DNA from: Acidobacteriaceae bacterium
Lineage (GTDB): Bacteria; Acidobacteriota; Terriglobia; Terriglobales; Acidobacteriaceae
Assembly: GCA_035944135.1 (NCBI GenBank)
Contig: DASZBM010000003.1
Span: 1-64,000, forward strand
DNA length: 64,000 nucleotides
Direction: 5' to 3'
A program made the position numbers and the translations under genes. Shown here one piece after another: positions 20,879-34,584 of this stretch; the first letter of the stretch is position 1, and every line of letters starts with the position of its first letter. The notes beneath the pieces were generated by a model. It saw only the letters and a program-made list of their open reading frames with translations. It had not been told where the DNA came from and did no database searches.

Positions 20879-21190
20879 TCTTTTCTCCTCGGCAATCTCA
20901 GCGAAGACTAAACCTCGCCTATCGAAGCAAATCGATTCTTCCACCCCCAAAAACACAGGGTCAAGCAATCCAACACTCCATCAACCGATTACCGCCCACT
21001 TTGTGCGAAATTGTGCAGTTCCTCTCCAGGGTGTTCGCACCTGCGATTCTTCATCAGCCGTCATCCTGAGCCGTAGGCGAAGGACCTCTGTATTTTGCTC
21101 TTGGCTTCGCAGGGTGCCGGGTGCCCCATTCATGACGACGGGCCGGGGTCCCCGGCGAGCTTGCTCGCTGGGGTGGCAGCCTCTTCGTCG
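20879..21190. other. Intergenic region upstream of sdhC
   Basis: A 312-base gap between sdhC and rdgB, both on the minus strand. The sdhC-proximal half must hold the sdh promoter, but no clear -35/-10 pair was recognised. The rdgB-proximal half holds repeat sequences (21059-21091 and 21125-21201). No tRNA or coding sequence was seen. Confidence 0.5.
21059..21091 (+). repeat. Dispersed intergenic repeat (copy 3, degenerate)
   Basis: Starts CGTCATCCTGAGC and ends GGACCTCTG. Shorter relative of the elements at 11946-11990 and 34417-34460. Confidence 0.45.
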
Positions 21191-29017: not shown

Positions 29018-31360
29018 TCAGCGGCGCAGGCGGAGGGAGTTGGCGAGAACGCTGACAGAGCTGAGCGCCATCGCAATGCTGGCGAGAACCGGGCTGAGCA
29101 GGATGTGCAAGTGCGGGTAGAGGACGCCGGCGGCAATGGGGATTCCGATGACGTTATAGATGAGTGCCCAGCCGAGGTTTTGGCGCATGATGCGCACGGC
29201 CCGTCGGCTGAGGCGGATCGCGGCGGGGATCAGCGCGAGATCGGAGTGGAGAAGGAGCACGTCGCCGGCTTCGCGGGCGAGGTCGGTGCCGGCGGCCATG
29301 GCGAAGCCGGCGTCGGATTGAGCGAGGGAGGCGGCGTCGTTGATGCCGTCGCCGGCCATGCCGACGCGGCGGTGCTTCCACCCCAGCGAACGAGTTCGCT
29401 GGGGGCCCCGGTGCTGCGATTGGAGCTCCCGGATGGTATCGAGCTTGCCGCTGGGGAGGAGTGAAGCGCGAACGTCGGCGATGCCGACTTCGCGGGCGAT
29501 GGCTTCGGCGGAGAGCTGCGTGTCGCCGGTGAGCATCAGGGTTTCGATCTTTAGCTGAGTAAGACTTCTGATGGCGGCTGCGGCTTCGGGGCGGAGCTGG
29601 TCGGTGGCGAAGAAGACGGCTTGTGGCTGGCTGTCAATCAGCAGATAGATCGGCGTGGCGTGGGTGAGTTCGGCGGGTGAGGCAAGCGCGGGATCGAGGA
29701 TGCGCGTGGGTAGGAGCGAGGCGTTACCGAGGAGGATCTCGCGGCCGACGGCAATTGCGCGGATGCCGATGCCGGGGAGGATTTCGACATCCGTGATCGC
29801 AGGGAGCAGTTGTGAGTGTGAGGAAGCGAAGGTGACGACGGCTTCGGCGACCGGGTGCGTGGAGGAGCGCTCAACCGCGGCTGCCAGGGCGAGAAGATCT
29901 TTGCGCGGCAGCAGCGGATTCGGAACCGTTGCGAAGTGCGCGATGTGCGGCTTGCCTTCGGTGAGGGTTCCCGTCTTGTCGAGCGCGAGTGTGTCGATGA
30001 CGGCGATTCGCTCGATGGCTTCGCCGCCTTTAATGAGGAGGCCGGTGCGGGCGGCGCGGCCGATGGCGACGGTGATTGCGGCAGGGACGGCGAGGCCCAT
30101 CGCGCAAGGGCAGGCAATGATGAGCACGGCGATGGCTATGGCGGAAGGTTGTGCGAGGCCGTCGTGACGGCCGGCAGTGTTGAGCGCGATGGCCCAGGCA
30201 GTGAACGAGAGCGCGCCGAGCGCGAGGATCGCCGGGACGAAGATGGCGCTGACGCGGTCGGCGAGGCGCTGCATGGGGGCGCGGGAGGACTGCGCCTGCG
30301 CAAGCATCCGCTGCATCTGCGCGAGTGTGGACGCGCTGCCCACCGCGGTGGCGCGGAGGACGAGAACGCCGTCGAGGTTGAGTGTGCCGCTGATGAGGCG
30401 ATCGCCGGGGGAGCGTGTGGCGGGCAGCGGTTCGCCGGTGAGCATGGATTCGTCGACGGAGCTGCGGCCGAGGAGGATGACGCCGTCGACGGGGATTCGG
30501 TCGCCGGGAAGGATGCGGAGGATGTCGCCGGTCGCGAGGGCGTCGGTGGGGAGGATCGTTTCGGGTGCGGAGGCGAAGTCGGGGTGCTCGGCTGCGGGAT
30601 CGATGTCGAGCAGGCGTGCAGTTGCAGCGGTGAGTTGGGCAAAGCCGCGGATGGAGCGAGTGGCCTGGCGGCGGGCGCGAGCTTCGAGCCAGCGACCGGC
30701 GAGGAGGAACCCGAGGATCAGGATGACGGACTCGAAGTAGACGTCGGCGGTGGATGTGCGGGCGCGGATTGTCGCGAGGAGTGAGGCGGCAAAGGCGCTG
30801 AGGGTGCCGATCGCGACGAGGGTGTTCATGTTGGTCGCGCGATGGCGGGCGGCACGCCAGGCCGCGAGATATATCTCCGGGGCGGCGAAGAGCATCACCG
30901 CGACGGACAGCAGGCAGAGGAACCAGCGCAGCGGTTGTGCGGGGAGGGACATCAGAGCTGCGGGCGTAAGGGGCGCGAGCAGGCGCGCGAGGAAGTTCAG
31001 CAGCGGATCGGCGCTGGGATTCGCCATCATCAACGGCATCGAGAGGATCATCGCGACGGCGCCGGCGATGAGGCTCACGGTAACGCGTAGGCCAAGCGCT
31101 CGCTCGCGTGGCTCTGCGGATGCCTGGGAGGCATCGATTGTTTGGTTTTCAGAGGGGAGGGAGGCGTCGTAGCCGGCGTGGCGTACGGCTTCGATGAGGG
31201 GTTGCGGCTGGAGGGGGTGGGTGGAGGTGATCTGGGCGGAGTTGGCGAGGAGGTTGACGGTGGCGGACTCGACACCGGGGACGGAGCACAGGGCGCGCTC
31301 GACGTGATGCTGGCAGGCGGCGCAGCTCATCCCGGCGATCTGGAGGGTCTGCTGAGTCAT
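29018..31360 (-). CDS. copA: Copper-translocating P-type ATPase
   Basis: A 780-residue P1B-type ATPase that exports Cu+. It has an N-terminal HMA domain with G-M-S-C-A-A-C (C13, C16), the intramembrane metal motif C-P-C, the phosphorylation motif D-K-T-G-T-L-T-E-G-K, the S-S-T-H-P-V-A nucleotide motif, and the hinge G-D-G-I-N-D-A-A (A in place of the usual P). About 13 residues (near 651-663, G-P-Q-R-T-R-S-L-G-W-K-H-R) are inserted just before the hinge. They are encoded by an in-frame palindromic repeat. It is preceded after 10 bases by a CopZ-like gene. Confidence 0.95.
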   Translation of the reverse strand: MTQQTLQIAGMSCAACQHHVERALCSVPGVESATVNLLANSAQITSTHPLQPQPLIEAVRHAGYDASLPSENQTIDASQASAEPRERALGLRVTVSLIAGAVAMILSMPLMMANPSADPLLNFLARLLAPLTPAALMSLPAQPLRWFLCLLSVAVMLFAAPEIYLAAWRAARHRATNMNTLVAIGTLSAFAASLLATIRARTSTADVYFESVILILGFLLAGRWLEARARRQATRSIRGFAQLTAATARLLDIDPAAEHPDFASAPETILPTDALATGDILRILPGDRIPVDGVILLGRSSVDESMLTGEPLPATRSPGDRLISGTLNLDGVLVLRATAVGSASTLAQMQRMLAQAQSSRAPMQRLADRVSAIFVPAILALGALSFTAWAIALNTAGRHDGLAQPSAIAIAVLIIACPCAMGLAVPAAITVAIGRAARTGLLIKGGEAIERIAVIDTLALDKTGTLTEGKPHIAHFATVPNPLLPRKDLLALAAAVERSSTHPVAEAVVTFASSHSQLLPAITDVEILPGIGIRAIAVGREILLGNASLLPTRILDPALASPAELTHATPIYLLIDSQPQAVFFATDQLRPEAAAAIRSLTQLKIETLMLTGDTQLSAEAIAREVGIADVRASLLPSGKLDTIRELQSQHRGPQRTRSLGWKHRRVGMAGDGINDAASLAQSDAGFAMAAGTDLAREAGDVLLLHSDLALIPAAIRLSRRAVRIMRQNLGWALIYNVIGIPIAAGVLYPHLHILLSPVLASIAMALSSVSVLANSLRLRR
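29370..29415 (-). repeat. 39-bp palindromic element inserted in frame in copA
   Basis: A 10-bp perfect stem with a 4-base loop (CCCCAGCGAA at 29381-29390, loop 29391-29394, TTCGCTGGGG at 29395-29404). It sits in a 39-bp unit bounded by a direct repeat CGGTGCT (29370-29376 and 29409-29415). 39 is a multiple of three, so the copA frame is kept. The inner palindrome resembles the one at 21150-21173. Confidence 0.8.
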
Positions 31361-34143: not shown

Positions 34144-34584
34144 GGTCTGAACCTCTGGACAGTTATGCGAGAAATGGTGAACGAAACTGCTTTAAGTTGA
34201 TCCGCGCACCAGCATACAGCACTGGTCGGATCTGGACGGGACCGGCAAACGGGCAAAAACAACGCAGATCCCCTTCGGGGGATGACAGAAAGAAGGGCAA
34301 AAGCACTCGCGCGCTACCATGCGCGATAACCCACCCTTTCACGATGAAACCGTGAAAGGGTAGGCCACCCGGTTCCTTTCCTCACGATGGAGCGATGAAA
34401 AGATGGGCCACCCGGCAAAAGCAGGTCCTTCCGCTTCGGCAAGCTCAGGGTCAGGATGACAGAAAGAAGGGCAAAAGCAAAGCAAGAGCAAAACACTCGC
34501 GCGTCTTAACGCGCGATGCCCACCTTAGCGACGATGAAGCCGTCGCGAAGATGGGGCACCCGATTGTTCGCTGATTGGTTCGGG
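34144..34584. other. Mosaic repeat region between secreted protein gene and carboxy-terminal protease gene
   Basis: No gene was seen in 441 bases. From about 34256 it is built of repeat pieces: GCAGATCCCC...GGATGACAGAAAGAAGG; two copies of CACTCGCGCG followed by a variable stem and a GCACCCGG-like end (34307-34372, 34493-34562); a palindrome CCCTTTCAC/GTGAAAGGG at 34333-34363 approximately; a degenerate copy around 34380-34415; and the CCTGAGC element at 34417-34460 on the minus strand. Confidence 0.6.
34417..34460 (-). repeat. Dispersed intergenic repeat (copy 2, inverted)
   Basis: Read on the minus strand: GTCATCCTGACCCTGAGC ... GGACCTGCTTTT. Closely matches 11946-11990. Confidence 0.65.

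Follow-up and report, generated by a model that had tools for sequence, protein, structure and literature searches.

A small palindromic repeat, very probably mobile, inserted in frame in copA of an Acidobacteriaceae bacterium

The copA gene of an Acidobacteriaceae bacterium carries a short palindrome within its reading frame, which raises the question of whether the corresponding residues belong to the protein or are the translation of an inserted DNA element. This study analyzed a window of 64,000 nt containing the gene, together with the genome from which it came (4.43 Mb, 10 contigs) and collected loci of other genomes. The sequence, frame, and flanks at 29370..29415 agreed with the original prediction of a palindrome in frame in copA with repeats at both flanks. 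The features at this site are as follows:

29018..31360, minus strand: copA, ORF of a 780-residue P-type Cu ATPase, with the insert in frame
29378..29411, plus strand (consensus orientation): palindromic repeat unit inside copA, 34 nt
29381..29391, plus strand: left stem arm CCCCAGCGAAC of the copA unit
29394..29404, plus strand: right stem arm GTTCGCTGGGG of the copA unit
29373..29376, plus strand: left direct repeat TGCT of the copA unit, probable target-site duplication
29412..29415, plus strand: right direct repeat TGCT of the copA unit, probable target-site duplication

The plus strand around 29370-29415 reads ..GCGGCGG-TGCT-T-[CCACCCCAGCGAACGAGTTCGCTGGGGGCCCCGG]-TGCT-GCG.., in which the bracket encloses the 34-nt unit. 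Its two 11-nt arms are perfectly complementary with 2 nt between them; folding as single-stranded DNA yielded a 10-bp stem with a 4-nt loop, as had been claimed, and the fold of the coding strand had a z score of -3.7. CGGTGCT occurs at 29370-29376 and again at 29409-29415, a spacing of 39 nt. These repeats are real, but the target-site duplication proper is probably TGCT, approximately 4 nt rather than the proposed 7, because the right-hand CGG is the usual 3' end of the unit in other copies. Likewise, the proposed 39 bp and 13 added residues describe the net gain, whereas the unit itself is approximately 34 nt long. In the minus-strand translation, the unit forms part of HRGPQRTRSLGWK, flanked by IRELQSQ and HRRVGMAGDGIND; the insert does not directly precede G-D-G-I-N-D, as had been thought, but lies a few residues earlier, separated from it by RRVGMA. 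Also inside copA, near the insert, is an inverted repeat of 15 nt (93%) at 29260-29315, its arms 26 nt apart.

CopA was then compared with its relatives. The search covered 61 genomes including the own genome, and the best 30 loci were taken, namely the own locus and 29 others. The results revealed that 27 of the 29 relatives aligned across the insert site (L039 and L042 did not and were set aside) and that all 27 lacked the insert, the gap being a net 13 residues in 26 of them and 12 in L036. The original prediction had held that residues carried by all CopA orthologues would indicate an old loop; the opposite was found, 0/27 carrying them. The best relatives were approximately 60-65% identical to the own CopA, and joining the copA flanks across the 39 nt by script gave ..IRELQSQHRRVGMAGDGIND.., which resembles the relatives. 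The CopA insert is a real insertion of a small palindromic element that is, judged from sequence comparison, very probably mobile.

A similar palindrome had been reported at 21150-21173. It is real, is another copy of the same family, and sits in the loop of a larger hairpin:

21143..21176, minus strand: second copy of the unit, with the consensus match at 21144-21174, between supported genes as far as tested
21125..21140, plus strand: left arm of a larger host hairpin with the second copy in its loop
21186..21201, plus strand: right arm of the larger host hairpin

A pattern derived from the two palindromes of the window matched twice in the window against 0.03 matches expected from shuffles. 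In the own genome, the 24-nt hairpin with at most 3 mismatches was found at 8 places (reversed pattern, 0), and the search for the stem consensus that had been suggested located the 31-nt consensus at 17 places (reversed control, 0). A chance palindrome was rejected on these window and genome counts. Among 101 genomes, the strict consensus was present in 7, own included, and a pattern with a free inner stem in 13, with one match to the control; the stems vary between genomes yet stay complementary. The exact 34-nt pattern was found in 82 stretches among 84,980 GTDB species genomes. Of the 80 stretches listed, 55 bore acidobacterial titles, among which we counted those of Pyrinomonadaceae on the assumption that they are acidobacterial; 16 came from one deltaproteobacterial MAG (SKS1.bin11), 3 from Desulfarculus MAGs, and 6 from others. 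One of these six, L234, is titled Verrucomicrobia, and its flank is the same as that of L060 from G018, which belongs to the genus of the window. With regard to phages as a possible vector, the phage collection gave no family match at E 0.01, and IMG/VR contained one matching stretch, L321, which was left out of the flank statistics.

The unit carries CCA and ACCCCGG outside its arms. Of 85 distinct units that passed a filter of 9 or more paired stem positions out of 11, 44 had an A.C mismatch at pair 5. With no stem filter, 48 of 51 distinct units retained three or all of the 4 free stem pairs; in shuffles the mean was 20 such units and the maximum 30. Paired changes in the variable stem preserve the hairpin, which is under constraint.

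We further analyzed whether direct repeats flank the copies of the family in general. A copy was dropped if fewer than 9 of its 11 stem positions paired, if it had over 4 substitutions, or if its flank was shorter than 30 nt; this removed L021 and L024 of the own genome, of which 15 of 17 loci were kept; 121 copies were reduced to 69 nonredundant ones for a wide spacing profile, or to 63 when tandem neighbours were also removed. At a net spacing of 39, 13 of 63 copies matched at 4-5 of 5 flank positions (shuffled mean 1.1, maximum 6 in 2000 shuffles), and 42 of 63 matched at 2 or fewer. Over spacings 35-49 (69 copies), 39 alone stood out (z 6.0), the next being 36 (z 2.6, from two positions). 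The 36 copies with a coding candidate gave z 6.1 at 39 and z 2.1 at 36, and the 27 copies without one gave z 1.5 at 39 and weak signals over 36-40 (37: z 2.4). Because of these weak signals in the copies without a coding candidate, the duplication probably varies in length between copies, from approximately 2 to 6 nt. The sharp peak at 39 among the copies with a coding candidate partly reflects the sorting of copies by open ORFs, and selection on frame also picks 39; the coding/noncoding split weakened the notion of 39 nt as an inherent length of the element. Target-site duplication is therefore a property of the family as a whole, variable in length and absent from many copies.

The NadB copy L280 has a perfect GTGCT duplication, and L221 represents the same site by its flanks. 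Tandem copies occur 36-39 nt apart, which is consistent with varying short duplications. In five SKS1.bin11 loci (L217, L255, L257, L261, and L283), tandem copies 38-39 nt apart lie within one hairpin repeat, with GGGAT-like spacers between them, an arrangement expected if the unit inserted several times at a single site.

Part of the copies lie inside other hairpins. By eye, 7 of the 17 own copies were assigned to the loop of a CCCACTCATG..CATGAATGGGGC repeat, close variants included, and 2 of the 17 to a repeat ATTCCC..GGGAAT. The former repeat is present in its empty form 13 times in the own genome and also in 10 others of 28 genomes searched, a search that also recovered empty relatives of the host hairpin of the second window copy; further host hairpin repeats were found, for example in SKS1.bin11, some with empty forms among the collected loci. 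Left-right flank pairing exceeded that of shuffles (z -4.9; 8 of 63 ranked in the best 5%, where 3.2 were expected), so the loop nesting is real for part of the copies. Copies in such loops may multiply along with their hosts.

Taken together, it is highly likely that the 13 CopA residues arise from translation of a non-autonomous mobile palindromic element, approximately 34 nt long and inserted with a short target duplication for a net gain of 39 nt. An inserted palindrome resembling the Rickettsia palindromic elements (RPEs) is supported because of the empty orthologues, the 17 copies against 0 in the control, and the enrichment of repeats at spacing 39. We infer that the family is mobile. 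A trans-acting enzyme would recognize the hairpin and cut with a stagger of a few nucleotides, the staggered cutting being suggested by the shortness of the duplications, and genic insertions would survive at tolerant sites when they add a multiple of three nucleotides. As a tentative first guess, to which we give somewhat less than an even chance, the mobiliser may be a transposase of the DDE type that acts on two fused terminal repeats as a minimal pair. Paired lone arms, which would mark an autonomous full transposon with the same ends, were not found in 1.47 Mb of collected loci.

Alternatively, the unit could be a REP-type repeat moved by a RAYT (REP-associated tyrosine transposase, Y1_Tnp) through a single-stranded intermediate, which we consider unlikely. 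Y1_Tnp genes number 2 in the own genome and are present in 33 of 41 genomes searched. Nevertheless, none of the 29 fetched relative Y1_Tnp loci and neither of the two own ones contained a copy of the unit (flank-set filter), and the own two genes are flanked by other repeats. In a comparison of 25 genomes, the own one and 24 others of the genus, copy number did not rise with Y1 number (rho -0.32, p 0.12), and the unit carries no unpaired GTAG or CGTC tag. To our knowledge, short target duplications are not a mark of IS200/IS605-type insertion, which also counts against a RAYT. The size, the hairpin, and the nesting in palindromes are, by contrast, REP-like (PMC3733652), and tyrosine transposases flanked by terminal inverted repeats are reported there from Acidobacteria, one set of these repeats being a repeated family. 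One own Y1_Tnp gene, L063 (G000:C10:482572-482874), contains one in-frame TGA and adjoins GGCACGGCTTCAGCCGTGCC repeats. At 34330-34364 of the window, an inverted repeat CCCACCCTTTCACG..CGTGAAAGGGTAGG resembles the repeats flanking the own Y1_Tnp (RAYT-like) gene L064.

It is very improbable that the family consists of functional transcription or RNA-stability hairpins under selection, of which the copA copy would be an accidental spread. Intergenic copies exist and the stem pairs covary, both in agreement with this idea, and two alphaproteobacterial plasmids (L322, Bosea; L323, Ancylobacter) carry similar units at distances of 87 and 93 bp upstream of annotated genes. The in-frame copies in unrelated genes and the flanking duplications speak against it, as does the result that the window gave no Rfam match at gathering scores. 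The plasmid units and the alphaproteobacterial copies, among which L241 and L270 have flanks in common, may be unrelated look-alikes, perhaps a convergent regulatory hairpin.

The copies within genes also bear on how such an insert is tolerated. Six of the 17 own copies, copA included, lie in frame in supported ORFs. A metallo-beta-lactamase-fold protein, present in 9 of 28 genomes including the own, has exactly 13 extra residues relative to 4/4 aligned orthologues, weak partial matches having been left out of the alignment. The other own in-frame copies are in dnaX, where the copy lies in a linker as part of a larger repeat, in an RDD-domain protein, in an ORF without a Pfam match that we take to be UvrC-like, and at the C-terminal end of a histidine kinase (L011). 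When DnaX, the RDD protein, and the UvrC-like ORF were aligned for the exact insert length, the linkers proved too variable; the insert length is unreadable in the variable linkers of L017, L019, and L020 and at the C terminus of L011. Two further own copies, L010 and L012, lie toward the N terminus of ORFs with a Pfam match and may precede the start.

Across genomes, there were 54 coding candidates; 30 ORFs were scanned with Pfam and 26 matched. The frame tally comprised 21 copies (L286 counted once), namely 20 of these 26 and L019; L010, L012, L082, L209, and L216 were omitted, the copy being N-terminal and outside the matched domain, as was L222, an alphaproteobacterial copy within its matched domain. 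Together, the 21 copies occupy all six frames, the third reverse frame being represented by copA alone. This use of every frame favours insertions that are tolerated over ones that supply a useful peptide, and we think that the inserted peptide has no function of its own. Copies were found on named contigs in ORFs identified by Pfam and best PDB matches as NadB, MnmA, GltX, MurE, Nnr, and ClpB, and in further Pfam-matched ORFs that are presumably CarB, EtfA, Gfo/Idh, ABC-F, RsmH, and a phage portal protein. The copy lies inside the matched domain in NadB, MnmA, MurE, and ClpB and at the break between two matched stretches in GltX. Against PDB structures, all of them distant, the gap at the copy was 14 residues in NadB, 12 in MurE, and 7 in MnmA, whereas GltX, Nnr, and ClpB each had over 20 additional residues unaligned at the copy; an exact 13-residue gap was seen in 0/6 genic copies compared with solved structures.

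In some yeast mitochondria, mobile hairpins are removed from the RNA or bypassed by the ribosome. That the copA insert is likewise removed or skipped during expression, through RNA excision or ribosome bypassing, appears very unlikely. The strong hairpin of the coding strand and the location of some copies within conserved domains are in its favour; the genic copies examined, however, keep the frame open throughout, and stops are scarce in the units (12 of 510 frames, compared with 9.9% in shuffles), although the read-through test is one-sided because only open ORFs had been selected. The reading as an old loop specific to the lineage and palindromic by accident was rejected and has next to no chance of being correct: the protein frame is intact and the nearest relatives are distant, but the aligned orthologues uniformly lack the residues and the 31-nt core recurs across the genome.

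The small dispersed repeats of cyanobacteria are reportedly also very small mobile repeats (an account we attribute to Elhai, 2008). Several further systems can be set beside the preferred reading, a mobile palindromic element. RPEs are likewise short palindromes in frame in unrelated protein genes (PMC10969869, PMC3733652), and in-frame insertion is equally found here; the habit of the Rickettsia elements, which the original prediction had invoked for an acidobacterial-type genome, is thus supported, and descent from RPEs is not claimed. Set side by side by description, RPEs are approximately 150 bp long and belong to Rickettsia (PMC10969869), whereas the copA unit, at approximately 34 nt, is acidobacterial and falls below the length of approximately 100-150 bp typical of RPEs; RPE-4/6 are also shorter than this and are counted with the CGTC REPs (PMC3733652). 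The target duplication of RPEs is given as '?' (PMC2229807, Table 1), whereas the copA-unit family has short direct repeats.

The GTAG/CGTC REPs, including RPE-4 and RPE-6 of R. conorii, are also hairpins of 20-40 bp, some wholly within ORFs and some within other palindromes, as in the copA-unit family (PMC3733652). The family differs from them in having no tag, no RAYT neighbour in the loci examined, and direct repeats; the words 'target site' and 'duplication' are absent from the main text of PMC3733652. Miniature inverted-repeat elements (MITEs), namely Correia/NEMIS, ERIC, and RUP, are likewise non-autonomous, with inverted repeats, target duplications, and in-frame fusions (PMC2229807). 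The unit has terminal inverted repeats in its 11-bp arms, with asymmetric ends beyond them. MITEs are, however, approximately 100-200 bp long and mostly A+T-rich with TA ends (PMC2229807), whereas the unit is G+C-rich, approximately 34 nt, and hardly extends beyond two fused terminal repeats. The GC clusters of yeast mitochondrial DNA (GC42) are tiny G+C-rich mobile palindromes with a putative target duplication that merge and shuffle; likened to the copA unit by description, they differ in being mitochondrial and in having an AG target (PMC4478555). Among the titles and abstracts listed on acidobacterial palindromes or REPs, none concerned the copA-unit family. Such units may already be in the RepRanger list, unnamed, because Granulicella aggregans is included in the table of REP counts (PMC12306157).

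In-frame genic palindromes are best known from Rickettsia, and REPs inside ORFs have been reported for several other bacteria (PMC3733652). In the present case, the genome is acidobacterial and of 4.43 Mb, the unit is approximately 34 nt, the duplications can be detected statistically, and one host hairpin has both filled and empty forms within a single genome. It is possible, though we regard it as doubtful, that the unit represents a family of mobile hairpins not described before and close to the smallest size of any mobile DNA. Such a family would move independently of a RAYT, prefer to enter the loops of other hairpins, have spread over Acidobacteria and one or more deltaproteobacterial lineages, and repeatedly introduce segments of approximately 13 residues into conserved, probably essential proteins. 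The system offers a way to test which machinery moves elements below the size of an ordinary transposon and how proteins accommodate inserts in any frame.

A second kind of repeat was also observed. At 21060-21086, the window contains a GTCATCCTGAGC..GAAGGACC repeat, a pattern with 20 matches in the DNA collected, window included and overlapping loci counted. In the linker encoded by the own dnaX (L020:889-3000, G000:C2:208582-210693), a second stretch, VILSEA..PKDPE, stands beside the palindrome insert and looks like a translated repeat of this kind, so that dnaX appears to hold two kinds of repeat in frame.
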